The translations under genes and the position numbers were made by a program. The notes beneath the pieces were generated by a model. The model did no database searches, had not been told where the DNA came from, and worked only from the letters and a program-made list of their open reading frames with translations. Of a stretch of DNA of 22,215 nucleotides, positions 2,715 to 22,215 are shown in pieces; position 1 is the first letter of the stretch, and every line of letters begins with the position of its first letter. This stretch comes from a virus, in the IMG/VR virus record IMGVR_UViG_3300042924_006496, positions 1 through 22,215 of that record. The stretch is one strand, 5' to 3'.

Positions 2715-3443
2715 GTGCTAATTCGTGTCGGTAGTTGTGAGGCCGAGGTGCGGGTGTGTGCCGTAATGAGCACGCCCCGCCTCGGCTTCACGGACAATTT
2801 CTTCTGCGTCCACTCGGCCCTGACGCCCCACCAGATTCCCGTTATCAAGCATACGGGTGTCTTCTTCGGCCAGTGCCTCACGCGGTCAATCGAGAGCGTC
2901 ATCGACAAATATGACGTCATTCTCACGATTGATTACGACACCGTATTCTCCGGCAAGATCGTCGAAGCCCTCGTCGCCCTGCTCATGCACTCCGGCGTGG
3001 ACGCCATTGCCCCGCTCCAGACGAAGCGGGAAAGCCAGTGCGTCATGTTCGCCCTGCCGGGCGTGAAGTCGGAAGACAAGACGACCGTCGAGGGCGACTG
3101 GTTCAAGAAGCCCGTGCAGCTCGTCGAGACTGCGCATTTCGGCTGCACGCTGATCCGCACCGAAGCCATCAAGAAGATGGAGAAGCCCTGGTTCGTCGCC
3201 AAGCCGAACGAGAACGGCGACTGGAACGGCTCGCACGTTGATGAGGACATCTCATTCTGGCGCGGCTTCGCGAAGGCCGGCAACAAGCTGGGCCTCGCGA
3301 CGAACATCAGCGTCGGCCACGCCGAACTGATGATCACCTGGCCCAGCCGGACAGAAGGCGACGGCAAGGTGCAACAGCACACAACCGATTTCTGGAACGG
3401 CGGCCAGATGCCGCCAGAGTCAGCCTGGGGCATCATAAAATGA
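2715..3443 (+). CDS. Glycosyltransferase-like protein (GT-A fold) in the head module
   Basis: A 242-aa protein with features of a GT-A/family-2-like glycosyltransferase: an N-terminal region rich in beta strands; ILTIDYDTVF at about residues 69-78, containing a DxD-type metal/nucleotide-sugar motif (D73-Y-D75); a central region ending with FGCTLIRTEAIKKM; and HVDEDISFWRGFAKAG from about residue 174, like the acidic acceptor-side motif of such enzymes. GTG 2715 is taken as start because AGGAG lies 7 bases upstream; an in-frame ATG at 2766 would give a shorter protein. It lies between the decoration and connector genes, so virion glycosylation is a reasonable guess, but the donor sugar and acceptor are unknown. 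It lacks a membrane segment. Confidence 0.65.
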   Translation: MLIRVGSCEAEVRVCAVMSTPRLGFTDNFFCVHSALTPHQIPVIKHTGVFFGQCLTRSIESVIDKYDVILTIDYDTVFSGKIVEALVALLMHSGVDAIAPLQTKRESQCVMFALPGVKSEDKTTVEGDWFKKPVQLVETAHFGCTLIRTEAIKKMEKPWFVAKPNENGDWNGSHVDEDISFWRGFAKAGNKLGLATNISVGHAELMITWPSRTEGDGKVQQHTTDFWNGGQMPPESAWGIIK

Positions 3444-3637: not shown

Positions 3638-4284
3638 CAGTCACGATTCGATACGGCTCGCCGGAGCACCCCGATAGTTCGATCACGCCATACCGGAGCC
3701 TCGTCCGTCACACGGCCCCAGTCGTCGAGCCGGTGTCGCTCGCGGAGGCGAAGGCTCAGTGTCGCGTGGACGGCACCGACGAAGACGCCTACCTCTCAAG
3801 CTTGATCTCGACGGCCCGCGAGTACGTCGAAAACGTGCTCGACCTGAGTCTCATCACCCAGGTCTGGGAGGCCCGCTACGACACGTTTCCGCTCTGGGAG
3901 ATCATCCTGCCGCGCCCCCCGATGCAGACCGGCACCGTGACGGTCATCTACCGCGACGAGGGCGGCGTGAGCCGGACGATCACGAGCGCGGCGAACGCCT
4001 TCCAGGTGGATGCCTATGCGACACCCGGCCGCATCTACCCGCTCTACGAGGGCGTCTGGCCGGCGGTGCGGGGCGACGAGAACAGCGTCACCGTCCGCTG
4101 GACGGCCGGCTACGGAGCCAGTGGCGGGAATGTACCGCAAACGGTTAAGAGTCTGATCATGCTTCTGGTGGCACACTGGTTCGAGATGCGGCAGCCCGTC
4201 GTGGCCGGCTACAGCCAGGTGCTGCCGGTGCCGCAGACGTTCGAGACGCTGCTCGCGGCGAGCGGCTGGGGAGGATACCGATGA
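3634..4284 (+). CDS. Head-tail connector protein, HK97 gp6-like
   Basis: A 216-aa protein starting at an ATG that overlaps the previous stop. The N-terminal half has the connector signature VSLAEAKAQCRVDGTDEDAY, then LISTAREYVENVL, which in this family (HK97 gp6, SPP1 gp15, 'phage connector' proteins) forms helices that bind the portal ring. A beta-rich middle (LPRPPMQTGTVTVIYRDEGG) and the conserved VTVRWTAGYGA followed by PQTVKSLIMLLVAHWFEMRQ complete the pattern. It is somewhat longer than minimal gp6 proteins, as in the phi-E125-gp8-like group. Its place just ahead of the adaptor and gp10-like genes agrees. Confidence 0.85.
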   Translation: MTVTIRYGSPEHPDSSITPYRSLVRHTAPVVEPVSLAEAKAQCRVDGTDEDAYLSSLISTAREYVENVLDLSLITQVWEARYDTFPLWEIILPRPPMQTGTVTVIYRDEGGVSRTITSAANAFQVDAYATPGRIYPLYEGVWPAVRGDENSVTVRWTAGYGASGGNVPQTVKSLIMLLVAHWFEMRQPVVAGYSQVLPVPQTFETLLAASGWGGYR

Positions 4285-4769
4285 GCCTCACGGCATCGGT
4301 GCTGGCGACGGTGTCGGCTCGGCTGCAATCGCGGCAGGGGCTGGCGACGGCCTTCACCGAACAGCCGATTGAGTTCTCGTTCGACGTCGGCGATTGCACG
4401 AAGGTCTGGAGCGACCGCAGGACATTCGCCTCCGTCGGCTATGACGATGTCGATTTCGCGACCGTCGGCATCGGCACGGTGAAGCTACTCTGCATCAAGA
4501 ATCTGTCGAAGACGAGCCAGATCGCCCTCTCGGCCGGCTGGACGGGGTCGCAGTTCAGCGTCTTCCGGCAGGACGTCACGAGCTGGAACTTCAGCCCCAT
4601 GATCAACCTCGGCAGCCTGACGCTCCGCGGCTACCCGATCCGCGAGGGCGGCGCGATGCTGCTCTCCTGCCCGAACTCATCTGGCTTCGCCACGACCTCC
4701 GGCGGGTCGATTCTCCGCATCGGCGGCACCAGCGGCCAGAACTACGAAATCTATGTGATGGGGAACTAG
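4281..4769 (+). CDS. Unidentified small structural protein, paralogue A
   Basis: A 162-aa protein starting at an ATGA overlap. I do not recognise a named family. It is paralogous to the next gene: KVWSDRRTFASV matches VVWSDARTLAGS, VKLLCIKNLSKTSQIALSAG matches VKAVYIRNSHASASLAFAG, and both end with a beta hairpin pattern (GSILRIGGTSGQNYEIYVMG against GTITVTGSAGATYDIVLIGE). The sequence is Ser/Thr/Gly-rich and beta-predicted. Being in the connector-adaptor block, it is probably a virion component such as a neck or collar decoration, but that is inference. Confidence 0.6.
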   Translation: MSLTASVLATVSARLQSRQGLATAFTEQPIEFSFDVGDCTKVWSDRRTFASVGYDDVDFATVGIGTVKLLCIKNLSKTSQIALSAGWTGSQFSVFRQDVTSWNFSPMINLGSLTLRGYPIREGGAMLLSCPNSSGFATTSGGSILRIGGTSGQNYEIYVMGN

Positions 4770-5231
4770 ATGGCACTCAATGCCCAGATCATCGTGTCGA
4801 TCCTCGCCCACGAAACCAGCATGGGCGACCTGTCGCGGACGCTGCGGGCGACCCCGGCGTCGTATTCGGCCGTGCTCTCCGACGGCACCGCGGCCTACCA
4901 GGCCCAGGTGGTCTGGAGCGACGCGCGGACGCTGGCCGGCTCAAGCGAAACCCTGAACCTTGCCACCCTGGCTGACACCCGCGACGGCGCTGCGGTGAGC
5001 GTGGCGATCACGGCAGTGAAGGCCGTCTACATCCGCAACAGCCACGCTTCGGCATCGCTGGCGTTCGCTGGCTCGCCGCTCCCGGCGGGCGGGCTGACGG
5101 TGGCGGCCGGAGGCGGCTACGCGCAGATCGACCCGACGGCCACCGGAATGGCGGCCGGGACGATCACTGTGACCGGATCGGCTGGGGCGACCTACGACAT
5201 CGTCTTGATCGGCGAGGGCAGCGTAACGTGA
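4770..5231 (+). CDS. Unidentified small structural protein, paralogue B
   Basis: A 153-aa protein whose ATG follows directly on the stop of paralogue A. It has the same core strands as its neighbour (see the paired segments described there) but is richer in alanine and glycine in the second half (LPAGGLTVAAGGGYAQ). Tandem duplication followed by strong divergence is the likely origin. A third, more distant relative may be the protein encoded at 12480, which shares the LRNLSTATASTATIGI-type strand pattern and a C-terminal GTAGTRLRVDI strand. The function is unknown. Confidence 0.6.
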   Translation: MALNAQIIVSILAHETSMGDLSRTLRATPASYSAVLSDGTAAYQAQVVWSDARTLAGSSETLNLATLADTRDGAAVSVAITAVKAVYIRNSHASASLAFAGSPLPAGGLTVAAGGGYAQIDPTATGMAAGTITVTGSAGATYDIVLIGEGSVT

Positions 5232-5543: not shown

Positions 5544-6314
5544 ATGGCGATCAATCCCAGCAATCCGTCGCCCCGTGACGTTGGCTTCGGCACCGGCAAG
5601 AGCCAGACCGAGGGCTTCGTGCGGATCGACACCGCCGGCGTCCGCGAGCTGGCAAAGGAACTCGAGCGAGTGGCCGGGGCGCTCGCCGCGCCGGGGCTGC
5701 TCCAGAAGTGCGTCAAGCAGGCGTCGCGACCGATTGCGATGGGCTACAAGTCCCTCGTCTCGAAGCCGCTGGCTGCGGGCAGTAGCGGTGCCACCGGCAA
5801 CCTCGCCAAGGCGACGATCACGCGGACGAAGGAATACGAGGGCGGGCAGGTCGCCGTGGCGATCACCGGCCCCCGGCAGACCGGCCCTGTCGGCTCCGAA
5901 GAGGGGCGTGAGAGCGGCAACCATGCCTGGCTCGTTGAGTTCGGCTCCGGCCGCCGCAAGCCTGGAACGCAGAACCGTCGCACCTATGTCAACGTCCATC
6001 AGATGATCAACGGCAAGATGCGGCGAACGACGTCGGCCATGAATGACGAAGAGTTCGCCCGGCGCGGGCGCGGCTACTACTTCCTCATGGGCAGCCTCAA
6101 CGAGCCGACGCGGCAGGCCAAGCGAGGCAAGGGCTACTCCCACGACTTCGCCACCGGCAAGGACGGCGAGACGCACCCGATCACCCTCGGCCCCGGCGAG
6201 AGCATCGACCCGATGCCGGCGTATCACCCGATGGAACGCACCATCGTCAGTTCGGCGGCCCAAGTGCAAGGCGTCCTGGCCCAACTGATCCAAGCAGAAA
6301 TCAACAAATTCTAA
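5544..6314 (+). CDS. HK97 gp10-like head-tail / neck protein
   Basis: A 256-aa protein. The start at ATG 5544 is preferred to more upstream in-frame codons because it follows the previous gene's stop by one base with GAGGTG 7 bases upstream. The region IDTAGVRELAKELERVAGAL is the family's N-terminal helix; RPIAMGYKSLVSKPL, HAWLVEFGSGRRKPG, then PMPAYHPMERTIVSSAAQVQ and a C-terminal helix match the HK97-gp10/SPP1-gp17-like pattern (minor tail or tail-completion protein). It is longer than the usual 130-170 aa because of a basic insertion around residues 145-190 (MINGKMRRTTSAMNDEEF, RQAKRGKGYSHDFATG), of unknown role. Confidence 0.8.
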   Translation: MAINPSNPSPRDVGFGTGKSQTEGFVRIDTAGVRELAKELERVAGALAAPGLLQKCVKQASRPIAMGYKSLVSKPLAAGSSGATGNLAKATITRTKEYEGGQVAVAITGPRQTGPVGSEEGRESGNHAWLVEFGSGRRKPGTQNRRTYVNVHQMINGKMRRTTSAMNDEEFARRGRGYYFLMGSLNEPTRQAKRGKGYSHDFATGKDGETHPITLGPGESIDPMPAYHPMERTIVSSAAQVQGVLAQLIQAEINKF

Positions 6315-6742
6315 TGCTCATCTCCCCCGAAAAGCACGTTTACCAGAAGCTCGTCTCCACGCCCGGCGTGGCGCGGATCGTCGGCTTTCAGGTCTACCCG
6401 ATCGCCGTACCGAAGACCGGCGCGAGCCTGCCGTTCATCGTCTACAAGCGGTCGAACATCACCCGCGAGACGGCTCTCTCTGGCCCGCTGTTCGTCCCGA
6501 TCGTCGGCCTCCAGATCGCGTCGTGGGCGCTCTCCTACGACGCGGTGCGTGAGCTTGCCGACGAGGTTCGGCTTGCACTGGATGGACACACCGGCACTAT
6601 GGCCGGGGCTACAATACAAGATATGAGGTTGGTGTCCGAAACGGACGACTTCCTCGATCCGACGGTCGCTGGGGCGCAACTGCCTCCGGCCTACGAAGTC
6701 CGGCAGTTGTTTCAGATTCGGTGGAACGAAGCCACCGCGTAA
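6314..6742 (+). CDS. Tail terminator / tail completion protein (DUF3168-like)
   Basis: A 142-aa protein starting at ATG 6314, overlapping the preceding stop by one base. The order ISPEKHVYQKLVSTPGV (N-terminal helix), VYPIAVPKTGASLPFIVYKR, VGLQIASWALSYDAVRELAD and ALDGHTGTMAGATIQDMRLV, ending in YEVRQLFQIRWNE, follows the DUF3168/lambda-gpU-like family, which caps the tail tube where it joins the head. The length is normal for the family. A copy of the AT-rich motif lies inside its coding region at 6607-6625 and a second immediately after its stop. Confidence 0.85.
   Translation: MLISPEKHVYQKLVSTPGVARIVGFQVYPIAVPKTGASLPFIVYKRSNITRETALSGPLFVPIVGLQIASWALSYDAVRELADEVRLALDGHTGTMAGATIQDMRLVSETDDFLDPTVAGAQLPPAYEVRQLFQIRWNEATA
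6607..6625 (+). promoter_or_regulatory. Recurring AT-rich motif, copy 2 (intragenic)
   Basis: GGCTACAATACAAGATATG is the best example of the repeated motif and lies inside the tail terminator gene, about 160 bases upstream of the first tail-tube-like gene. TACAAT (6610-6615) resembles a -10 element; no convincing -35 is seen at 16-18 bases (TGGACA at 6584 is 20 bases away). Confidence 0.4.
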
Positions 6743-6760: not shown

Positions 6761-6781
6761 GGCGCAAGGAGGCGCAACCAC

Positions 6782-7117
6782 ATGGCAGGCGTTTCAGCAC
6801 AGGGACTCACCTTCACGTTCGGTGGCTCCAACCTCACGGTCACTTCGGTTCAGGTCAGTGACACCCAAGACCTCGTTGACGGCTCGCATCTCGGCATCGC
6901 CCCTGGCGGTCGCCGCGAGTTCGTCGGCGGCTTCGCCACCGAGCGGGAAGTCACCATCGACTACATCTCGACCAATGTGCTCGCGGCCGGTACGTCCGGC
7001 AGCCTGTCGATCAGCGGCCCGATGTCGTTCAGCGGTGCTGCAACGCTCGCGTCGGCCTCGATCGGCGGTTCGGTGGGCGCCCTCATCAGCGGGAGCGCGA
7101 CCTTCCGCGTCGCGTAA
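6782..7117 (+). CDS. Tail-tube-like protein, copy 1
   Basis: A 111-aa beta-rich protein with the strongest ribosome binding site in the tail block (AAGGAGG, 6766-6772, 9-base spacing). It begins MAGVSAQGLTFTFGG and ends with an ISGSATFRVA strand; between are short Ser/Gly/Thr strands. Its position between the tail terminator and the assembly chaperone is where the tail tube (major tail) gene belongs, and its strong ribosome site suits a high-copy protein. It is the first of three paralogues. The tube assignment rests on position and fold pattern, since no diagnostic motif is visible at this small size. Confidence 0.65.
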   Translation: MAGVSAQGLTFTFGGSNLTVTSVQVSDTQDLVDGSHLGIAPGGRREFVGGFATEREVTIDYISTNVLAAGTSGSLSISGPMSFSGAATLASASIGGSVGALISGSATFRVA

Positions 7118-7123
7118 GGCGAC

Positions 7124-7480
7124 ATGGCTGGCGTCAGCTCACAAGGCACGACGTTCACGTTTGGTGGTGGCTCCTATTCCATCACCAGCGTCACGGTCAA
7201 CTACGGCCAAGAGCGCGGTCGCGTGTCCGGCGCCCACATGGGCATGGGGGTCAACGACGTCGAGCCGGTGTACCTCATGCACCGGACGGCAGACTCGCTG
7301 CCGACGGTCGATGTCGAATACATCACCGCGTCTGCGATCCCGCAGGTCAATGCCACTGGGTCGCTTTCGGTCAGCGGAAAGATTGCGTTCTCAGGCTCCG
7401 CGACCTGCGTCTCGTCGCAGGTCACGGCCAGCGTCGGCGACTTGGTTCGTGGGTCTGCGTCGTTTCGCGTGCAGGTCTAG
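7124..7480 (+). CDS. Tail-tube-like protein, copy 2
   Basis: A 118-aa paralogue of copy 1: MAGVSSQGTTFTFGG against MAGVSAQGLTFTFGG at the N-terminus, LSVSGKIAFSGSATC against LSISGPMSFSGAATL in the middle, and GSASFRVQV against GSATFRVA at the end. The middle third (residues 28-60, with HMGMGVNDVEPVYLMHRT) is divergent and has more charged and methionine residues. The spacing to copy 1 is six bases with an AAGG site. It may be an alternative tube subunit, or a tip or initiator ring protein. Confidence 0.6.
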   Translation: MAGVSSQGTTFTFGGGSYSITSVTVNYGQERGRVSGAHMGMGVNDVEPVYLMHRTADSLPTVDVEYITASAIPQVNATGSLSVSGKIAFSGSATCVSSQVTASVGDLVRGSASFRVQV

Positions 7481-7482
7481 AT

Positions 7483-7833
7483 GTGCCTGGCATTCCATAC
7501 AACGCCACGTTTTCGTTCAGCGGCTTTTCCGGCCATGTCACTGGGATTTCAGTGGAAGCCGGTCAGCCGGAGATCGTGAACATGACCGGCGCCAGCGCCG
7601 CGCTCGGCTCGGCAGTGATGGTGCCGACGGGCGACTTTTCGCCGGGGTCCATCACGGTGGACTTCCTTGCGGATGGTTCCATCCCGAGCACTGGCACGAA
7701 GGGGCAACTCAGTTTCTCGTCCAGCGCGTATTCAATCGGACGGAATGTGGTTCTTGAGTCGGTGCAGGTTGACGCCAGGGTTGGCGAATTGGTTCGAGGG
7801 ACGATGAAGTTTGTGATGACGGATTATTACTAG
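7483..7833 (+). CDS. Tail-tube-like protein, copy 3 (GTG start)
   Basis: A 116-aa third paralogue, most diverged at the N-terminus but retaining the pattern YNATFSFSGFSGHVTGISVE, a GSITVDFLADGSIPSTGTKG middle and a VGELVRGTMKFVM end (compare VGDLVRGSASFRV in copy 2). GTG 7483 is the only start that keeps the homologous N-terminus; ATG 7481 is in another frame. Lower expression than copies 1 and 2 would fit its weak ribosome site. Confidence 0.6.
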   Translation: MPGIPYNATFSFSGFSGHVTGISVEAGQPEIVNMTGASAALGSAVMVPTGDFSPGSITVDFLADGSIPSTGTKGQLSFSSSAYSIGRNVVLESVQVDARVGELVRGTMKFVMTDYY

Positions 7834-7846
7834 GAGCAGGTTTGGC

Positions 7847-8185
7847 ATGGCGACTGATCTTCGGAAGCGGATTCTGGCGGCGAACGACATCAAGGTGGAG
7901 GCCGTTGAAATCCCCGAGTGGGGCGGCACCTACTACATCAAGGTGATCAGCGGCACCGACCGCGACTCCTTCGAGGAGTCCTACGCCGAGCAGAAGATGA
8001 AGGCGTTTCGCGTCCGGTTCCTCCTGCTCGCCCTGTGCGACGAGGCCGGCGAGCGGATTTTCAAGGACGAGGATTCGGCCGACCTCGGCAAGAAGTCGAG
8101 CGTCGTGATCAATCGCGTCTTCGACGCGGCCTGGAAGGTGAACGCCTTCACGAACGAGGCCGTGGAGGCGCTGGGAAAAGACTAG
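7847..8185 (+). CDS. Tail assembly chaperone, short form (gpG-like)
   Basis: A 112-aa protein from ATG 7847, with AGGAG upstream at 7833-7837. It shows VEAVEIPEWGGTYYIKVISG, a beta-hairpin region common in these chaperones, then a helical part (MKAFRVRFLLLALCDEAGER) and ends ALGKD. In the family (lambda gpG, HK97 gp13/14) the short form coats the tape measure protein with the frameshifted long form during tail assembly and does not remain in the virion. The gene stands between the tube and tape measure genes, as expected, and its last codons contain the slippery heptamer. Confidence 0.85.
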   Translation: MATDLRKRILAANDIKVEAVEIPEWGGTYYIKVISGTDRDSFEESYAEQKMKAFRVRFLLLALCDEAGERIFKDEDSADLGKKSSVVINRVFDAAWKVNAFTNEAVEALGKD

Positions 8186-8500: not shown

Positions 8501-11500
8501 ATGGCAAAAGCGTATCTCGGCAAAATCTCGGCGCTAGTCACTGCGAACACCAGTGACTTCAACAGCAAGCTGAATGCGTCGGCGAACGAACTTCGCAGCT
8601 TCGCCAAGTCGATGCAGACGTCGCTCACCCGCGCCCAATCGGAGGCGACGTCGGCGCTTCGCGGCATCTACACCGAGTCGCAGAAAGTTTCACGCGCCCT
8701 CCAGGCAGTCGCCACGCAGAGGCTCTCGTTCAAAGGCTTCGACACGGCGGCGGTGGGCTCGATCCGCCAGGCCGTCGATCAGTTCAAGGCTCTCCAACAG
8801 GCGGCCGTAGCCGTCAACGAGCCGCTCTCGCGAGCCGCACGGGCGGTCGAGAAGCTCTCGGCCCCGGTGCAGATGGGCTTTGAGCCGGCGATGAAGTCGG
8901 CCCAGAAGAGTGCGGAGTATCTCAATTCCGCCCTCACTCGTGGCGGGATCATCGGCGAGAAGAGTTTTGAGCGTATCGAGCGGCGAGCGCTGGCCGCCGC
9001 CCAAGCCGCCGACCGGCTCGCCGAAGCCGCGCAGATGGCATCCGCAGGACCGCGGGGGACTGAGTTGGCCTTCGCAGCCCCCCGCGTCCGCGACTCACTG
9101 GCCGCATCGGCCGATGTAAGACAGCGGGCCGCCGCCGCCCCGGCGTCTGTGCTCGAGGGCGGCCGGGTTGCGAATGACGTCCAGAAACTCGTCGCCATCG
9201 ACAATCTGATTCAGAAGCGACGGGCTGAGGTTGAGTCCGGCACGATTCTCAATATCGACACGACGCGGGCGCAGGCCAGCCTGGAGAGCCTGCTTCAGAT
9301 TGCGGCACGGGTTCGTGCGCAGGTCAGCGCGGCGATCGGCGGTGGCGGCGCAGACGCAGAGACGGCTTCACTGATCAACCGCGCCCGCGCCCAGCGGGAT
9401 TATTACGAAGAAAGCGAGCGGCTCGCCAATCAAGCAGCAAGTGACGCTGCCGCCCCGCTCATCGCCCGCGCTCGTGCGGAGCGCGACTTCTACGAAGAGA
9501 GCCGTCGCCTTGCCGGCCAGGCCGCGGCTGACGCTGCCGCGCCACTGATCGCCCGCGCCCAAGCGGAGCGCGAGTTCTACGAAGAGAGCGAGCGACTCCG
9601 CAGGCAGGCTGCCGCAGACTCCTCCGCGACCGCAGACCGCGAGGTCGCCCCGCTCATCAACCGCGCCCGCGCCCAGAGAGACTCGCAGATCGACTTCGGA
9701 CTCGACCTTGACGCCCCGAAGCGGCAGATCGAGGTTCTTCGCGGCTCAATCGTCTCGCTCAAGGGGCAACTCGACACCCTGCCCGCAGGGATTCGTGCTC
9801 AGTTCGTGCCAGCGATCTTGGCGGCACAGCAAAACCTGGAGGCGCTTGCCGCCGCCCCCGCGGCGACCGCGGAGCAAATCGACGCCGCATCCGCGGCTGT
9901 CGCGAGGCTTCAGTCGGCCGCCGCCAACGCATCAAAGTTCACGACATCGCTTTCCCAGTCATTCGATGACACTAGAGTTAGGGTTTTCTCGGCCAGGCTT
10001 GAGGCACTCCGCAGCATCCTCATCAACGTCGGCGCTACCGCCAGCACCGACGCTGCAAGGAGGTTTGAGGTTCTTCGCCAGGCGATTCTGGAAGCCGCTG
10101 CCTCCGGCGACTTCACCGCTGTCATCGGCAACCTGAACAAGTTGGAAAAGGAGGCGATCGACGCAGCAGCGGCCTTCTCTGGACTGTCCAGCAAAAACAT
10201 CGCGGCGAACTTGCAGCGAGCCGGCGATGTAGGGCGTGCGGGGTTTGACAAGTTTTCGCTCGCTCTCAACCAGGCTGCCTTCGCCATCGACGACTTCTTC
10301 TCTGCCACCGGCGGCCTTGAGTTCAAGCTGCGGGCCGTCAGCAACAACATTACGCAACTCGGCTTCATCATTGGCGGGACGACGGGATTGTTCGTCACGC
10401 TTGGCGCTGTTGTCGCGGGGCAGGTCGCCGTCGGGATTGCGAAGTTTGTCTTTGAGACTGACAAGGCAGACGCCGCCCTGAAGGCTCTGAATGACGCGCT
10501 GGAGGCAAACCAGCGCAATGTCGAGCAACTCGCCGACTCCTACAAGCGGCTTGCCAACGAAATCGCCAAGGCGACGCTGTCCCCGAGGGACAACGTTCGC
10601 CGCGAGCGCGCGCAGCGGAGAGAAGAAATTGATCGCCAGCGTCGGGCCACTGAAGAGGAGGCATTTGCTTCGCTGTCACCGGAGGTTGCCCGCGTCCGCG
10701 GCGAGCGAGAACTGCTCAAGAAGCGTCAGCAGGAATCGAATGACGTTCAAGAGCGCGTTCGCATCGCCAAGCAAATCCGCGATAATCTCAAGCAGGAGCG
10801 AGAACTGCTTGACAACCGCGGCGTGGACGCTGCCCGCAACCTTCTGACGCAGTCTGCCGACAGGCAACTGGCCGCACAGGAAGTCAGGCTCAAGAGGGCC
10901 AGGGCGAGGCGGGCGCTGGGTTCTCCGGAGCAGGCTGGCGAGAATGTCGAACAACTTGAGCAGGTCGTCGCTAGGGCAAGAGAGCAAGCCGCCGCCGCGA
11001 GGCGGGCCAGGGTTCCGTCGGCTAACACATCCGCCGGCACGCGGTCGCAACTGGATTCGCTCCGTGGGTCGCTTGCAGGGGCAGAGCAGGCCAGAGCAGA
11101 CCTTGTCCGTGCGTTGCCGCGGCAGACCCCTGGCTCCAGAGTCACCCGCCTTGAAGAACTTGACCAGACGATCAGCGAACTGAAAGACAGGATCGAGGTC
11201 GTATCTGCCGTACTGGGTGGGCAGTTGGCGTCGGAGCTAATTGATGGGCAAGGGCGGATTCAAGACTCCCTGAATGCCACAGCGGAGTCGCTGTCATCTG
11301 TCGATATAGCAACTGCGATTGGCGAGCAGCGCGACAAACTCGCCCGCGAGCTGACCGCCATCGCCGACGAGCTTGCGACTATTTCCGACCCAGCCCGCGC
11401 CGACGCGCTACGCCAGCAGCAGGAGGAGATCGCTAAAAACGCAGCCGCTCTCCAGTCTTCCGCAAAGTCAGTCGAGCAGTTTGCTGCCGTTGTGGACAGG

Positions 11501-12466
11501 GTCGCTAAGCAACTTGCTGACACAGTCACGCAAGAAGTTCAGGGCAGGGCAGACCAGGCTCGCCGAGGACTGAACGCGGCCCGTGGCGCCGAGTTGGCCG
11601 GAACATCTGGCTTGCCGGCGTTTCGCCGCGGGCGTGCTGGCGTGGATCAGAGAAGGGCTGTTGAGCAAGCCGATGAAGATCGTCGTCGCGCCGATGCTGA
11701 ACTGCGCCGCGCCCGTGGTGCGCAGCAGGCTTTTGAGCGTCGCCGCCGCCGGTCTCTCCGGCGATTTGAGAATGCCGCATCTGACGGGAATCTTGGAGAA
11801 GAAGCGCAGAGCATGATTCGCCAGCGGGACGCCGCGCAGGCGGTGCTGGACAGCGAAACATCCACGGCCGCGGAGCAGAGGCGGGCGGCCGACTTGCTTG
11901 CCGAGGCAAACGCAAGGCTCGAGCAGCTCTTCCAAGACTCTACCCTTGGTCAGGCACTGGCGAAGTTTGCGGACCAACTCGACATCGCGGCACAGAGGGC
12001 CGTTGAGGTTGACCGCCAGATTGAGCAACAGCGCCAGTCAGTCGAGCGCGGTCGCGAGCTATCTATGCAGCCAGGCCAGCGCGAGGGCGAAGAACTTCAG
12101 CAGCAAATCCAAGACATTCGCAACTACTTCGACCAAGCCGTCGAGGAAAGCACTGGCCTGCCGGATGATGTCCGGCAACTCCGCGCGCAGATGAACGAGG
12201 CCATCACCCGCGCACAAGAGGAAATGGCCCGCCAAGTCGCACCAACCATCATGGGTGCCGCCGACGCCAGGATGAACGCCGTCCTGCAAGGGCCGTCGCG
12301 GAGGGAGCTGACAACGGCCGACATCAGAACGGATGCAGGAAGCCGCGAACTCAGCCGTCTCTTGCGCGGCGACGACGACGCAAAGAACGCCGATCTCGCG
12401 AATCTCCAGCGTGAAGCCAACAGGCTCCTGCAAGTCATCGCCGGCAAGAATAACCCAGTAGCCTAG
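8501..12466 (+). CDS. Tape measure protein
   Basis: A 1321-aa protein directly behind the chaperone pair, the longest gene in the window. The N-terminus (KISALVTANTSDFNSKLNAS) has the substrate-like pattern of many tape measures. Long Ala/Arg/Glu/Gln-rich helical segments cover most of the chain. A hydrophobic stretch at about residues 616-650 (LGFIIGGTTGLFVTLGAVVA) is the likely membrane-active segment. Residues 291-400 hold tandem 29-residue repeats. Tape measures set tail length, occupy the tube and are ejected with the DNA; by the usual 0.15 nm per residue the tail would be near 200 nm. No peptidase or lysozyme domain was seen. Confidence 0.92.
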   Translation: MAKAYLGKISALVTANTSDFNSKLNASANELRSFAKSMQTSLTRAQSEATSALRGIYTESQKVSRALQAVATQRLSFKGFDTAAVGSIRQAVDQFKALQQAAVAVNEPLSRAARAVEKLSAPVQMGFEPAMKSAQKSAEYLNSALTRGGIIGEKSFERIERRALAAAQAADRLAEAAQMASAGPRGTELAFAAPRVRDSLAASADVRQRAAAAPASVLEGGRVANDVQKLVAIDNLIQKRRAEVESGTILNIDTTRAQASLESLLQIAARVRAQVSAAIGGGGADAETASLINRARAQRDYYEESERLANQAASDAAAPLIARARAERDFYEESRRLAGQAAADAAAPLIARAQAEREFYEESERLRRQAAADSSATADREVAPLINRARAQRDSQIDFGLDLDAPKRQIEVLRGSIVSLKGQLDTLPAGIRAQFVPAILAAQQNLEALAAAPAATAEQIDAASAAVARLQSAAANASKFTTSLSQSFDDTRVRVFSARLEALRSILINVGATASTDAARRFEVLRQAILEAAASGDFTAVIGNLNKLEKEAIDAAAAFSGLSSKNIAANLQRAGDVGRAGFDKFSLALNQAAFAIDDFFSATGGLEFKLRAVSNNITQLGFIIGGTTGLFVTLGAVVAGQVAVGIAKFVFETDKADAALKALNDALEANQRNVEQLADSYKRLANEIAKATLSPRDNVRRERAQRREEIDRQRRATEEEAFASLSPEVARVRGERELLKKRQQESNDVQERVRIAKQIRDNLKQERELLDNRGVDAARNLLTQSADRQLAAQEVRLKRARARRALGSPEQAGENVEQLEQVVARAREQAAAARRARVPSANTSAGTRSQLDSLRGSLAGAEQARADLVRALPRQTPGSRVTRLEELDQTISELKDRIEVVSAVLGGQLASELIDGQGRIQDSLNATAESLSSVDIATAIGEQRDKLARELTAIADELATISDPARADALRQQQEEIAKNAAALQSSAKSVEQFAAVVDRVAKQLADTVTQEVQGRADQARRGLNAARGAELAGTSGLPAFRRGRAGVDQRRAVEQADEDRRRADAELRRARGAQQAFERRRRRSLRRFENAASDGNLGEEAQSMIRQRDAAQAVLDSETSTAAEQRRAADLLAEANARLEQLFQDSTLGQALAKFADQLDIAAQRAVEVDRQIEQQRQSVERGRELSMQPGQREGEELQQQIQDIRNYFDQAVEESTGLPDDVRQLRAQMNEAITRAQEEMARQVAPTIMGAADARMNAVLQGPSRRELTTADIRTDAGSRELSRLLRGDDDAKNADLANLQREANRLLQVIAGKNNPVA
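9371..9700 (+). repeat. In-frame tandem repeats in the tape measure gene
   Basis: Four copies begin at 9371, 9458, 9545 and 9653. Copies 1 and 2 are exactly 87 bases (29 codons) each, copy 3 has a 7-codon insertion and copy 4 is partial. The protein unit is of the form LIxRAxAxRxFYEESxRLxxQ followed by an AAxDAAAP linker. The DNA copies differ at many sites, so the array is not a very recent expansion. Confidence 0.8.
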
Positions 12467-15594: not shown

Positions 15595-15598
15595 TATG
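15579..15598 (+). promoter_or_regulatory. Recurring AT-rich motif, copy 4
   Basis: GGCTACAATGCACTAATATG overlaps the end of the 15133 gene and reaches into the start codon at 15596. AAAGG (15576-15580) is the only ribosome-site-like sequence before that start, 15 bases away. If the motif is a promoter -10, transcription would begin inside the fibre-module gene and it could not serve that gene's start, so here an RNA-level role is equally possible. Confidence 0.4.
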
Positions 15599-15964
15599 GC
15601 AACGACATTCAGCCAGCTCCCTGCGCAGTTAGATGTCACCTTCGTGGCTGGGGACGAAGTCAATATCGCCCTCGACTTCTCAAACGACCTCACCTCGCAT
15701 ACGTTCCAGAATGCGATCTACGTCTCCGGGAACATCGCCACCGGGGGCGGCACTGGGTTTATCAACACCGTCGGCCAGACGGTGACGTCGTTCAATATCA
15801 CCCAGACGAACCTCGCCACCGGCCAAATTGGCCTTGGGCTGACCGAGGCCCAGACCGCCCTCCTTTCGCCGGCCAACTCATACCGCTGGTATCTGCGGTG
15901 GGTGTCGCCCGGCTCCGTGACTAGGACAGTCCTCTCCGGCGTCGTGACGCCGGTCGCGCCATGA
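15596..15964 (+). CDS. Fibre-module beta protein A (BppU N-domain-like)
   Basis: A 122-aa beta-rich protein with the pattern LDVTFVAGDEVNIALDFSND, GLTEAQTALLSPANSYRWYL and RTVLSGVVTPV. The same order occurs in the protein encoded at 20952 (LPISFVRGDTMSALVDFSID, LTAQQTAALPRGTYQWKFVW, RTALTGFVEAL), so the two are paralogues. The pattern resembles the N-terminal beta-sandwich of baseplate upper proteins that attach receptor-binding proteins to the tail. It overlaps the fibre gene by an ATGA. It probably anchors or caps that fibre. Confidence 0.6.
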   Translation: MATTFSQLPAQLDVTFVAGDEVNIALDFSNDLTSHTFQNAIYVSGNIATGGGTGFINTVGQTVTSFNITQTNLATGQIGLGLTEAQTALLSPANSYRWYLRWVSPGSVTRTVLSGVVTPVAP

Positions 15965-17775
15965 CCGCTGGAAACGAAATCAGCGTCTCCGTCGCCAACG
16001 GCCCGGCGGTCGATGTAGCCGTGGCCGGCGCCATCGGCGACACGCTTACCGTGACGAACGGCTCGACGGCGTCGATCAGCGTCACGAGCGTCGGCGATCG
16101 CGGGCCGAGAGGCGACACGGGGCCGGCGACGACGCTGACGATCGGCACCGTCACGGGTGGAGCGACGGCTGCGGCCACGCTGACCGGCACGGCCCCCAAT
16201 CAGACGCTCTCGCTGGTGCTGCCGCAGGGTGCCACTGGCGCGAACGTCGAGCTTCAAACCACCTCGACGCATATTCAGTGGCGGCTCGTTGGCGGTAGCA
16301 CCTGGACGAACCTCGTCGCCCTGACGGCAATCACAGGACCGCAGGGCAGCGTTGGTGCGACCGGCGCGAACGTCGAACTGCAAACGACATCGACGCACAT
16401 TCAATGGCGTCTGGTCGGCGGTAGCACTTGGACAAACCTTGTGGCGCTGACGGCGATCACGGGACCACAAGGTAGCACTGGCGCAACGGGTAGCGTCGGC
16501 CCGGCTGGGCCTGCGAATAGCCTGAATGTTGGCACGGTGACCACTGGTGCCGCTGGCTCGTCGGCATCGGCCACGATCACGGGTAGCGCACCCAATCAAA
16601 CGCTTTCGCTCACGATCCCGCGCGGCGACACCGGGGCCACCGGTGCGGCTGGCGCGACCGGCAGTGTCGGCCCGGCCGGGCCTGCGAACTCATTGAGCGT
16701 CGGCACGGTGACGACGGGGGCGGCCGGGAGCAACGCATCCGCGACCATCACAGGCACCGCTCCGAATCAGACGCTCTCCCTCACGATCCCGCGCGGAAAT
16801 ACTGGCGAGACGGGGGCCACTGGCGCGGCTGGCCCGGCAAACAGTCTTTCTATCGGCACCGTGACCACCGGCGCAGCGGGCTCGTCGGCAAGCGCGACCA
16901 TCACCGGCACGGCCCCCAGCCAGACGCTATCGCTCACGATCCCGCGCGGAGATGCCGGAACGGGCGGAATGTCGTGGGCGAGCGTGCCCGACGCCCCTGG
17001 CTCAACTGGCACCGCTGGGGCGATGGCCTACGACCCAAACAACATCTACGTCTGCGTGGCGTCCAACACATGGAAGCGGGCCGCGCTCTCGACATGGACT
17101 GTCACCGATCCGCTCTTCGCCAACGTCTCGCTTTTGCTGCACATGAATGGCAGTAACGGCAGCACGACGTTCACGGATTCCTCTTCGACTCCGCAGACAG
17201 TGACCGCATCTGGCGGGACCATCAGCACAGCGCAGAGCCGGTTTGGTGGCGCAAGCGGTTTGTTTGTAAAGGCAAGCGGACACCAGCTGACGCTTCCGAC
17301 ATCAACCGCCGCTTTTGATTTCGGCACCGGAGACTTCACGATCGAAGCCTGGGTGCGGCTGAACTCGCTCCCGTCTACCACGGACTCGGGTTCGTTCTGG
17401 ATACTCGGCTTAGGGAGTAGCAGTTTCAGGTATGGAACAGATTTCTGGATTTCACCCAGCAACATCGTTTTTAATGTTGGCGATTGGGTGAATCCGACTG
17501 CCGAAGGTCCGCACGGCATGACGACCGGGCAGTGGTATCACGTCGCGGCGGTTCGTAGCGGCAATACCGTGCGGGTGTTCGTCGGCGGCTCTCAGGTGGG
17601 CTCGGGGACGAGTACGCAAGCAACTTCAGGAAATTTCTCGTTGCCCGTGATTGGCGGCGACACGAGCGGCGGCGGCAACTTCGATGGCTACATCGACGAG
17701 TTCCGCGTGACCAAGGGCGTCGCCCGCTACACGGCGAACTTCACGCCGCCAACGGCCGCGTTCCCTGACGCTTGA
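15961..17775 (+). CDS. Collagen-like tail fibre with C-terminal LamG-type domain
   Basis: A 604-aa fibre protein. Residues 1-45 form an N-terminal beta segment. Residues 46 to about 340 alternate short Gly-X-Y tracts (GDRGPRGDTGPA, GPQGSTGATGSVGPAGPA) with repeated beta modules of the form PANSLxVGTVTTGAAGSxAS ... APNQTLSLTIPRG and two copies of a 42-residue unit containing STHIQWRLVGGSTW. Residues 386 to 600 are a concanavalin/LamG-type jelly roll: FDFGTGDFTIEAWVRL, GQWYHVAAVRSGNTVRVFVG and GYIDEFRVTKGVARYTANFT are hallmark segments. LamG domains bind glycans or proteins, so this is probably a receptor-binding fibre. No chaperone is visible in the gap after it. Confidence 0.88.
   Translation: MTAGNEISVSVANGPAVDVAVAGAIGDTLTVTNGSTASISVTSVGDRGPRGDTGPATTLTIGTVTGGATAAATLTGTAPNQTLSLVLPQGATGANVELQTTSTHIQWRLVGGSTWTNLVALTAITGPQGSVGATGANVELQTTSTHIQWRLVGGSTWTNLVALTAITGPQGSTGATGSVGPAGPANSLNVGTVTTGAAGSSASATITGSAPNQTLSLTIPRGDTGATGAAGATGSVGPAGPANSLSVGTVTTGAAGSNASATITGTAPNQTLSLTIPRGNTGETGATGAAGPANSLSIGTVTTGAAGSSASATITGTAPSQTLSLTIPRGDAGTGGMSWASVPDAPGSTGTAGAMAYDPNNIYVCVASNTWKRAALSTWTVTDPLFANVSLLLHMNGSNGSTTFTDSSSTPQTVTASGGTISTAQSRFGGASGLFVKASGHQLTLPTSTAAFDFGTGDFTIEAWVRLNSLPSTTDSGSFWILGLGSSSFRYGTDFWISPSNIVFNVGDWVNPTAEGPHGMTTGQWYHVAAVRSGNTVRVFVGGSQVGSGTSTQATSGNFSLPVIGGDTSGGGNFDGYIDEFRVTKGVARYTANFTPPTAAFPDA
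16123..16971 (+). repeat. Coding repeats of the collagen-like fibre
   Basis: Two families are interleaved. The 126-base unit occurs at 16240-16365 and 16366-16491. A module starting with Pro-Ala occurs at 16123 (diverged), 16510, 16681 and 16834. In the 126-base pair, 23 of 42 codons differ synonymously and only one amino acid (Val or Thr in the collagen part) changes. Confidence 0.85.
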
Positions 17776-19419: not shown

Positions 19420-19598
19420 CACCCGACGAAATCAACAAAGCCTGGGAACTCGTCAACAAGTACGGCCCGTCGAATTCGTGGACGGCCGCGAACGGGACGC
19501 TGGCGGCGGCCCTCGGCCGGGCGCTCGAGCAGATTGAGCGGCTCCAGTACCGGATCGCGATTATGGAGGAGCGCAGTACGCCCTATGAACGAGACTGA
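19416..19598 (+). CDS. Small 60-aa coiled-coil protein
   Basis: It starts at an ATGA overlap with the phosphoesterase gene and its end overlaps the deaminase gene by 14 bases. Residues 27-55 (LAAALGRALEQIERLQYRIA) form a probable helix or coiled coil; the first 26 residues include a SNSWTAANG loop. There is no recognisable family and no clear ribosome site, so expression would depend on coupling. It is a real but unassigned gene by position and overlap. Confidence 0.5.
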   Translation: MTPDEINKAWELVNKYGPSNSWTAANGTLAAALGRALEQIERLQYRIAIMEERSTPYERD

Positions 19599-20043
19599 CT
19601 ATCTCCGCGAGGCTCTCCGCTACGCGAGGGCCGTTTCGCACGACACGAACACCCAGGTCGGCGCCGTCCTGGTCGCCGGCAAGCGGCTGGTCTACGGGGT
19701 CAACCGCGCCGCCTGCCGGATCGACGGCGCCAGCAAATACCAGATCACGGAGCACGCCGAGCGGGCCGCGATCTACAAGGCCGCGGCCGTGGGAATTGCC
19801 ACTGCCGGCTCGACGATGTACGCCCCCTGGTTCGCCTGCACCGACTGTGCAAGGGGCATCATCCTGGCCGGCATCCGCGAGGTCGTCGGCCTGGTGAGCC
19901 TGCGGCAGGCCACGCCCCGCCGGTGGCTTGAGAACCTCGAGATGGCTGACGAGATGCTCAGTCGCGGGGGCGTCAATACTCGCTGGCTCAACGAGACGGT
20001 GGGGGTCACGATTCGCTTCGACGGGAGGGACTTTTCATGCTGA
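19585..20043 (+). CDS. dCMP deaminase-like enzyme (cytidine deaminase superfamily)
   Basis: A 152-aa zinc enzyme. H57-A-E59 (TEHAERAAIYKAA) and C85-T-D-C88 (PWFACTDCARGI) provide the zinc ligands and catalytic glutamate; the usual proline before the first cysteine is replaced by alanine. The N-terminal helix and TNTQVGAVLVAGKRLVYG strand are typical of the dCMP deaminase/ComEB group, which converts dCMP to dUMP for dTMP synthesis. ATG 19585 is used because the codons further upstream in the frame are inside the previous gene; GGAGGAG lies 13 bases upstream. It overlaps the next kinase gene by seven bases, so the pair forms a nucleotide supply unit. Confidence 0.85.
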   Translation: MNETDYLREALRYARAVSHDTNTQVGAVLVAGKRLVYGVNRAACRIDGASKYQITEHAERAAIYKAAAVGIATAGSTMYAPWFACTDCARGIILAGIREVVGLVSLRQATPRRWLENLEMADEMLSRGGVNTRWLNETVGVTIRFDGRDFSC

Positions 20044-20603
20044 TTGGGCTCTGCGGGGCCGCCGGAAGCGGCAAAGACACGGTGGCGGGCATCCTGCGCG
20101 AGACGGCACAGTGCTACCGGGTGGCGTTCGCCGACCCGCTCTACGAGATGATCTCCGTCGTGACGGGCCTGCTGCCAGAAGACCTGCAAGACCGCGAACT
20201 CAAGGAGGCCGAGATCGACTGGATCGGCAAAAGCCCGCGGCAGCTTCTCCAGACCCTCGGGACTGAGTGGGGGCGGGGCATGGTCAGCGAGAACATCTGG
20301 ATCGACATCGGGATGCGGCGGATCGACCGGCTCCTGGCCGACGGCCGCAACGTCGTCGTGACCGACGTTCGATTCGACAACGAGGCGGCGGCCATCAAAT
20401 CAGCCGGCGGCGAGGTCTGGCAGATCGTCCGCGGCGAGGGCTGCGTCCGCGGGGTGTCGATGCGTCATGCCAGCGAGGCCGGGGTGGCGCAGACGCTCGT
20501 CGATCGCGTAGTCGGCAACTGGTCTACCCTTGAGAAACTGCGGCAGACCGTCGCGGCGAATGTCCTCTCTGGGGCCGCCCCAAAGGCTACAATACAACAA
20601 TAG
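20037..20603 (+). CDS. Deoxynucleoside monophosphate kinase-like protein
   Basis: A 188-aa P-loop kinase. Walker A is G7-A-A-G-S-G-K13-D-T15. The AFADPLYEMI segment and SPRQLLQTLGTEWGRGMV, followed by NVVVTDVRFDNEAAAI, match the T4 gp1-type dNMP kinase pattern with the conserved R-F-x-N-E. It phosphorylates dNMPs to dNDPs; the host normally completes the triphosphate. The GGGAGG site is 8 bases upstream of ATG 20037. Gene overlap with the deaminase points to joint expression. The last codons (KATIQQ) are encoded by the AT-rich motif, copy 6. Confidence 0.85.
   Translation: MLIGLCGAAGSGKDTVAGILRETAQCYRVAFADPLYEMISVVTGLLPEDLQDRELKEAEIDWIGKSPRQLLQTLGTEWGRGMVSENIWIDIGMRRIDRLLADGRNVVVTDVRFDNEAAAIKSAGGEVWQIVRGEGCVRGVSMRHASEAGVAQTLVDRVVGNWSTLEKLRQTVAANVLSGAAPKATIQQ
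20585..20603 (+). promoter_or_regulatory. Recurring AT-rich motif, copy 6
   Basis: GGCTACAATACAACAATAG covers the last codons and stop of the kinase gene, 16 bases before ATG 20620. TACAAT at 20588-20593 resembles a -10; no -35 is seen at the normal distance. Like copies 2 and 4 it is read in part as coding sequence. Confidence 0.4.
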
Positions 20604-20951: not shown

Positions 20952-21263
20952 ATGGCCTACGACCAGACGCCTGGCAACCTGCCGATCTCGTTTGTGCGCG
21001 GTGACACGATGTCGGCGCTGGTTGACTTCAGCATCGACCTCACCGGTTACTCGTTCACTGGCTCCCTCGTCTCGGTGGTCACGGGGGCTGAAGTCGTGCC
21101 GCTGACGCTTGCGGTCGTGTCGGCCGCTAACGGGCAGGTGAATGTGTCCCTGACGGCCCAGCAGACCGCCGCTCTGCCCCGCGGCACCTACCAGTGGAAG
21201 TTCGTCTGGACGCAGGGGCTCGCGGTTCGCACGGCGCTCACCGGCTTTGTGGAGGCTCTCTAA
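20952..21263 (+). CDS. Fibre-module beta protein B (BppU N-domain-like)
   Basis: A 103-aa paralogue of the protein at 15596 (the aligned segments are given there), starting at ATG 20952 with a GGGG track 5 bases upstream. It is directly followed by a collagen-like fibre gene, exactly as in the first module, so the pair was duplicated or acquired as a unit. In the shared pattern, FVRGD replaces FVAGDE and the QWKFVWTQG strand replaces RWYLRWVSPG. It probably anchors or caps the second fibre at the baseplate. Confidence 0.6.
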   Translation: MAYDQTPGNLPISFVRGDTMSALVDFSIDLTGYSFTGSLVSVVTGAEVVPLTLAVVSAANGQVNVSLTAQQTAALPRGTYQWKFVWTQGLAVRTALTGFVEAL

Positions 21264-22215
21264 ATGCCGCCGATCAACGCCACGGTGACGAATCAGCAGA
21301 TCACGGCGAACGTCGGCGAGACGCAGATCGACGTTTCGGTCAGCGGCGGCGTCGGCCCTACGGGGACGGCGGGCGCGGCGGCATCGGTGACCGTCGGCAC
21401 CGTGGCGACGGGTGCGCCGGGATCGTCGGCCTCGGTGGTCAATGCCGGGACGACCTCGGCGGCCGTCCTGAACTTCACGATCCCCGCCGGGGCCACGGGT
21501 TCAGTCGGGGCTACCGGCCCGCAAGGCGAACGCGGCGAGCAAGGGATTCAAGGAATCCAAGGAATCCAAGGCCCAGCGGGACCAACCGGGCCTGCGGGAG
21601 CAACCGGCCCGGCGGGCAGCAACGCTACCGCGACGACCGACGCTTCGGCACTGGTGTCTGGCATCCTCCCCGACGCCCGGCTCTCCTCGGCAATCGCCCG
21701 CACGAGCGACGTTTCATCGGCCGTCGCCGCCGTCGTGAACGCGGCCCCCGCGACGCTCGACACGCTCGCGGAGTTGGCCTCGGCTTTGGGCTCAGACGCG
21801 AACTTCTCGACGACCGTCACCAACTCGCTCGCCTCGAAGGCCCCTCTCGCCAATCCCACGTTCACTGGCACGGTTAGCGGCATCACGGCCTCGATGGTGG
21901 GCCTGGGCAACGTCGCGAACGTGGACGCGCGGGCGCGGTCGTCGCACACGGGGACGCAGGCGATCAGCACCGTCTCGGGATTGCAGGCGGCGTTGGACGC
22001 GAAGGCGTCGCTTGCTGGTGCGTCGTTCACGGGTGGCGCAGATTTTGGCAGCGATGTTGATGTCGATGGCGTTTTAGGCGCATCTGCTGTTGTTTCCGCG
22101 TCCTCGATTCAGGGGCGCACACTGGTTTTGACGGCAATCGGCGGCGGCCCAGTACCGTTTTCGGTCAACAACGCCGGGCAGGTCGTGGCTGGCACATGGC
22201 TCGCCAGCGCCATCG
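21264..22215 (+). CDS. Second collagen-like tail fibre, 3' truncated by the window
   Basis: The frame is open from ATG 21264 to the right edge (317 codons visible), so the C-terminus is missing. The N-terminal ~75 residues resemble the start of the fibre at 15961 (SVTVGTVATGAPGSSASVVN, then a LNFTIPAG strand). A longer Gly-X-Y tract follows (GATGPQGERGEQGIQ to GPAGATGPAGS), including three successive GIQ triplets. After it come fibre-shaft segments such as LASKAPLANPTFTGTVSG and MVGLGNVANVDARARSSHTG, typical of tail fibre and collar proteins with 'P-x-F-T-G' repeats. The receptor-binding end lies outside the window. Confidence 0.85.
   Translation, partial: MPPINATVTNQQITANVGETQIDVSVSGGVGPTGTAGAAASVTVGTVATGAPGSSASVVNAGTTSAAVLNFTIPAGATGSVGATGPQGERGEQGIQGIQGIQGPAGPTGPAGATGPAGSNATATTDASALVSGILPDARLSSAIARTSDVSSAVAAVVNAAPATLDTLAELASALGSDANFSTTVTNSLASKAPLANPTFTGTVSGITASMVGLGNVANVDARARSSHTGTQAISTVSGLQAALDAKASLAGASFTGGADFGSDVDVDGVLGASAVVSASSIQGRTLVLTAIGGGPVPFSVNNAGQVVAGTWLASAI

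Follow-up and report, generated by a model that had tools for sequence, protein, structure and literature searches.

A widespread, uncultured siphophage lineage always keeps two paralogous genes for proteins of predicted tail-tube fold, of which one stays nearly constant and the other is swapped freely between phages. The tube of a siphophage is usually pictured as many copies of a single protein, and most such viruses have one tube gene. In the virus record analysed here, which covers 22,215 bases and is called the window at its full length, three paralogs lie in tandem and are named P1, P2 and P3.

Three tandem genes in the tube gene position

The three genes lie between a tail terminator gene and a tail assembly chaperone (TAC) gene, and the same gene order is found in their relatives. 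The relevant features of the window are:

6314–6742, + strand: tail terminator/completion protein (Tail_completion_gp17), 5′ neighbour; Pfam PF11367, 4.3e-11; PHROG tail terminator, 2.1e-7
6766–6772, + strand: Shine-Dalgarno (SD) site of P1, AAGGAGG, anti-SD energy -11.4
6782–7117, + strand: P1, predicted tail-tube-fold protein, conserved paralog; ATG start, 111 aa
7124–7480, + strand: P2, putative tube-fold paralog, optional accessory copy; ATG start, 118 aa
7483–7833, + strand: P3, predicted tube-fold paralog, obligate but variable copy; GTG start, 116 aa
7847–8185, + strand: tail assembly chaperone, G-like, 3′ neighbour; phrog_344, 5.8e-29
8173–8179, + strand: slippery heptamer GGGAAAA at the chaperone end, read from the sequence, with the -1 frame then open to 8496
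8501–12466, + strand: probable tape measure protein, 1321 aa, assigned from its size and its position after the chaperone

P2 starts 6 nt past the stop codon of P1, and the GTG of P3 lies 2 nt past the stop codon of P2. In siphophages the tail-tube gene usually follows the gene for the tail terminator and precedes that for the tail assembly chaperone; P1 to P3, flanked by these two genes, therefore occupy the tube gene position. The slippery heptamer and overlapping -1 frame of the chaperone gene are of the same frameshift type as lambda G/G-T, and GGGAAAA or GGGAAAC is present close to the end of the chaperone gene in 24 of 56 relatives. Head genes further 5′ encode an HK97-type capsid protein (Pfam Phage_capsid, 1.4e-31), a gp6-like connector and a head completion protein. 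The head module also contains an unnamed gene (4281–4769) whose ribosome site equals the P1 site in strength (-11.3) and which perhaps encodes an abundant capsid decoration protein, a similar-looking gene directly after it (4770–5231), and a glycosyltransferase-like gene (2715–3443; Pfam Glyco_trans_2_3, 1e-5, just under the cut-off). Elsewhere in the window are two collagen-like repeat proteins that are probably fibres (15961–17775 and 21264–22214), of which the first has a Laminin_G_3 domain at its end (Pfam 3.9e-20), and a dCMP deaminase-like gene followed by a deoxynucleotide monophosphate kinase-like gene (19534–20603).

The open reading frames were found as in the preliminary description, which had proposed three tandem paralogous genes of 111–118 aa, and the three proteins are mutually homologous beyond chance. 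Their local alignment scores stand 25 (P1/P2), 8.4 (P1/P3) and 14.6 (P2/P3) standard deviations above those of 1000 shuffles, none of which reached the observed score for any pair. In a MAFFT alignment P1 is 45% identical to P2 and 27% identical to P3. The N-terminal third is most alike (62, 36 and 39% for P1/P2, P1/P3 and P2/P3) and the middle part least alike (30, 21 and 28%), so that the proposed pattern of shared ends and divergent middles holds as a tendency, but it does not extend to the C-terminal part of P1 and P3, where identity is merely 24%.

Structure prediction points to a tube-type β-sandwich fold in both P1 and P3. AlphaFold2 models were made for these two proteins from alignments of relatives with many sequences in common, which leaves them partly dependent on each other; the P1 model has a pLDDT of 89.2 and a pTM of 0.73, and the P3 model is of moderate confidence (pLDDT 76.5, pTM 0.61). 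Foldseek matches of P1 in the PDB are tail tubes, Hcp proteins and tube-like baseplate or distal-tail proteins, with RcGTA first (E 1.4e-5) and monocin, the phage 812 neck and lambda gpV also among the top matches, while VIA gave Z scores up to 9.8 (rmsd 3.9 over 109 residues). The matches of P3 belong to the same tail-tube or Hcp-like class, including the Sf11 tube in Foldseek (E 1.2e-4) and the R4C tube in VIA (Z 9.7, rmsd 4.1 over 110 residues). In a comparison with predicted structures of viral proteins, P1 best matched uncharacterised proteins from uncultured phages and major tail proteins of the TP901-1 type. For P2, homology to the other two suggests the same fold. The predicted models and the gene position thus bear out the tube-like identity first proposed. 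The converse picture, no tube fold here and a true tube gene elsewhere, was not found within the searchable data, which include 35 whole records. The earlier suggestion of decorating domains split into separate genes is not supported, since each of the two modelled paralogs forms a complete tube domain.

The family resembles known siphophage and RcGTA major tail proteins (Rcc01691, lambda gpV, R4C TTP and monocin MttP) in its predicted β-sandwich tube fold with a long hairpin and loop, and in the placement of the gene between tail terminator and chaperone. It differs from them in having two to four paralogous genes where those systems have one, in the lack of any sequence match, and in size. 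RcGTA has been called the most minimal tube system in a review, and its tube protein has an α-helix flanking the sandwich (PMC8718954). In comparison, P1 at 109–113 aa does not reach the 134 residues of the RcGTA chain in 6toa_G, and the models of P1 and P3 contain no helix flanking the sandwich, although a helix-like DPQxLVR segment occurs in the sequences of many P3 relatives. P1 to P3 of the window have no match in Pfam or PHROGs, 124 relatives have no convincing match in Pfam, PHROGs or NCBIfam, and a sequence search of the PDB returned nothing convincing for P1 to P3. The genes would add a tube family that these sequence libraries do not recognise.

Relatives and copy number

Relatives of P1 to P3 were found in IMG/VR only, where scans yielded 171 and 184 P1-like stretches, 40 loci reached through the chaperone, and, besides these, a sister clade and a far clade. 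These relatives were retrieved through P1 or the chaperone, a route that would miss phages whose only tube gene is very different. A tblastn search of 50,697 phage records found no relatives of P1, of a P3 relative or of the first copy of the far clade, and a search of a genome collection found none of P1 or of the capsid protein. From the IMG/VR loci we assembled 84 non-redundant cassettes with terminator, P1, P3 and chaperone, 56 of them from the clade of the window (clade 1) and 28 from the sister clade (clade 2).

In the locus lists that we inspected, P1 and P3 are present in every clade-1 or clade-2 locus with an intact interval between P1 and the chaperone, P3 lying inside a longer open frame in one of them (L086). 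P2 is present in 23 of the 56 clade-1 cassettes and is absent from locus L009, even though the terminator, P1 and chaperone of that locus are 93–97% identical in DNA. Four copies occur in L073, L074 and L086, and each of 31 whole clade-1 or clade-2 records has two to four copies. When 35 whole records, the longest of 74.5 kb, were searched with profiles, no copy turned up outside the tail cluster. The far clade (clade 3) is very divergent, with a tape measure of 460–472 aa, and its loci have two tandem copies; in three of four clade-3 records the profile caught one copy only, and the second was detected with clade-3 queries. Some relatives have an extra gene of 141–240 aa between P3 and the chaperone (L041, 2705–3130; L042, 5801–6523; L043, 6512–6937), and L039, L046, L049 and L057 have a gap of similar size there. 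The product of this extra gene is weakly similar to those of window genes 15596–15964 and 20952–21263, each of which lies 5′ of a collagen-like fibre gene.

Start sites, history and exchange of alleles

P1 has the best ribosome site of the three genes, as first described, with an anti-SD energy of -11.4 in the window against -3.7 for P2 and -3.2 for P3. All quartiles of the P1 value are -11.4 across the 56 clade-1 cassettes, and the median is -11.4 across 27 clade-2 cassettes. The P2 and P3 sites are weak in clade 1. However, in most clade-1 cassettes P2 and P3 start 2–6 nt after the preceding stop codon, a spacing with which translational coupling could supply both proteins, and clade-2 cassettes have a separate, strong Shine-Dalgarno site for P3 (median -10.6). 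Abundance therefore cannot be read from the start sites, and the proposal that the GTG codon and weak site of P3 mean a lower copy number is a weak one; deducing a low abundance from SD strength was rejected as unsafe.

In a tree of 124 sequences, P1, P2 and P3 are each set apart by a branch supported at 99–100/89–99 (99/93 for the P2 clade and 100/99 for the P3 clade). These separate, well-supported clades indicate an old duplication followed by lineages kept in a fixed order, and rule out that the P3 copies are recent duplicates. An AU test did not distinguish between two origins for the clade-3 pair, orthology to P1 and P3 or a second duplication (p 0.42). Within clade 3 the first copy has a mean identity of 79%, compared with 42% for the second copy, 47% for the terminator and 50% for the chaperone.

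P3 and, to a lesser degree, P2 vary between phages that are otherwise closely related. For phages whose terminators share at least 95% identity, mean identity is 94% for P1, 95% for the chaperone, 85% for P2 and 75% for P3, with a P3 minimum of 35%. DNA identity profiles against the window drop in P2–P3 and in the tape measure gene, and remain high in the terminator, P1 and chaperone genes; between L002 and L009, for example, P1 is 97% and P3 53% identical. By these sequence comparisons, P2–P3 behave as a swap cassette. In close pairs dS is 1.17 in P3 and 0.31 in P1, with dN/dS of 0.27 and 0.21, respectively. Divergence of P3 is thus raised in dS as well as dN, which, with a dN/dS of 0.27, indicates old alleles exchanged under purifying selection. 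Positive selection on P3 was considered and is not supported, its dN/dS being only slightly above that of P1.

The tape measure gene (window 8501–12466 and its relatives) is itself strongly mosaic, with the chaperone and P1 96–100% identical between the same phages. The type of P3 follows neither the tape measure nor the next gene closely, and strong matching of P3 to the tape measure was rejected because P3 proteins that are 99–100% identical (L002, L007 and L010) occur with tape measures that are only 33–43% identical in their middle and C-terminal parts.

Variation within the proteins is also uneven. P1 is near-invariant across relatives, including a loop at residues 34–46 that we equated with the β2-β3 loop by strand order in the models. 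The corresponding loop of P3 is among its most variable parts, and its barrel strands are conserved. In T5 and SPP1 the β2-β3 loop of the tube protein makes the contacts between rings, and growth of the tube depends on it (PMC8718954).

Possible roles of the paralogs in the tail

Between a tube of mixed composition and a special ring, the evidence leans towards P1 as the trunk with P2 and P3 as specialised subunits. All three would be paralogous tail-tube proteins of a lambda-type siphophage. Hexameric rings of P1, stacked round the tape measure, would form the bulk of the hollow tube, and P3 together with the optional P2, as old and diverged copies, would join the same tail as specialised subunits. 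Their most likely place would be in rings at one end of the trunk, by the tip or the terminator, or else as a minority within it, at positions and copy numbers that we can only suggest. The outward and inter-ring loops of P2 and P3 would be free to vary and be exchanged between phages as a cassette, with the barrel strands constrained. A putative inter-ring loop that hardly changes in P1 but is highly variable in P3 favours a self-stacking P1 trunk with P3 and P2 specialised, most likely as end rings. We also counted for this arrangement the fold matches and gene position, the separate clades, the strong SD site and near-invariance of P1, the swapping of P3 beside a stable P1, the retention of P3 in all intact cassettes while P2 is dispensable, and the recurrence in clade 3 of a conserved first and a variable second copy. 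On the other side, the strong P3 site in clade 2 and possible coupling in clade 1 mean that P3 could equal P1 in abundance, and its conserved barrel strands mean that it could polymerise with P1. On balance we give about even credence to P1 as trunk with P3 always, and P2 sometimes, as specialised rings or minority subunits.

These last points belong equally to a different arrangement in which P1 and P3, with P2 where present, co-assemble along the whole tube in mixed hexamers or alternating rings. The presence of P3 in every intact cassette, its independent SD site in clade 2, the short distance between stop and start codons in most clade-1 cassettes, with which synthesis could be coupled, and the conserved barrel strands would all suit such co-assembly. 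So would a T6SS heterohexamer from Bacteroides fragilis, Hcp2-Hcp3, which by the title of its entry (PDB 9vne) unites two tube-fold paralogs in one hexamer and which VIA placed among the top matches of both proteins (Z 9.5 with P1, 9.9 with P3), although it comes from a secretion system and not a phage tail. However, P1 is nearly fixed while its supposed partner ranges from 99% to 53% identity, and the putative inter-ring loop is invariant in one and variable in the other. We regard co-assembly along the whole tube as rather unlikely. Slightly less likely still is its full form, in which the tube would be a genuine heteropolymer of P1 with P3 and sometimes P2, in contrast to phage tubes built from the product of a single gene, and phages would trade P3 variants as exchangeable components of the tube.

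P3 and P2 might instead be tube-fold virion proteins with another job, such as a ring at the tail surface or in contact with the host whose loops are pressed to vary. Swapping of P2–P3 as a cassette between near-identical neighbours fits this idea, as does the resemblance of the post-P3 gene of some relatives to window proteins encoded before the collagen-like fibre genes. That resemblance is weak (E 0.02 and 0.004, single comparisons), and the dN/dS of P3 against that of P1 bears no sign of positive selection, making such a job improbable. That P2 and P3 act outside the virion, as assembly factors or decaying duplicates, would fit the weak start sites of the window clade but is very improbable given purifying selection, universal retention of P3 and recurrence of the pair in a divergent clade.

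Precedents for specialised rings come from contractile systems. In the eCIS, Alg5 and Alg7 are tube-initiator rings that share the tube fold (PMC8894135) and attach the main Alg1 tube to the spike, and in T4 gp48 and gp54 are hub rings (PMC8718954) for polymerisation of the gp19 tube. In both, the initiators lie at the baseplate or spike, whereas the place of P3 in an end ring is our proposal. Two subunit forms also share one tail in SPP1, where gp17.1 and gp17.1* occur at 3:1 (PMC8718954), but these arise from one gene by a frameshift that adds an FN3 domain and not from paralogous genes.

Two major tail genes per genome are already known. Actinophages of clusters DJ, EL and others have two major tail protein genes, which are 43% identical in the DJ phage FortCran (PMC12859696, PMC11080557), so that at least two related major tail genes per genome are common to those phages and the lineage described here. 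In DJ the copies lie one gene apart and one was likely acquired horizontally, according to the authors; here the copies are adjacent, old, in fixed order and up to four in number. Against the open-access literature searched, what is new is an old, adjacent and obligate pair with an exchanged member in an uncultured lineage. This lineage would be a natural system in which to ask whether tube rings differ in role according to their position, how growth of the tube is started and stopped, and whether a heteromeric tube is possible.
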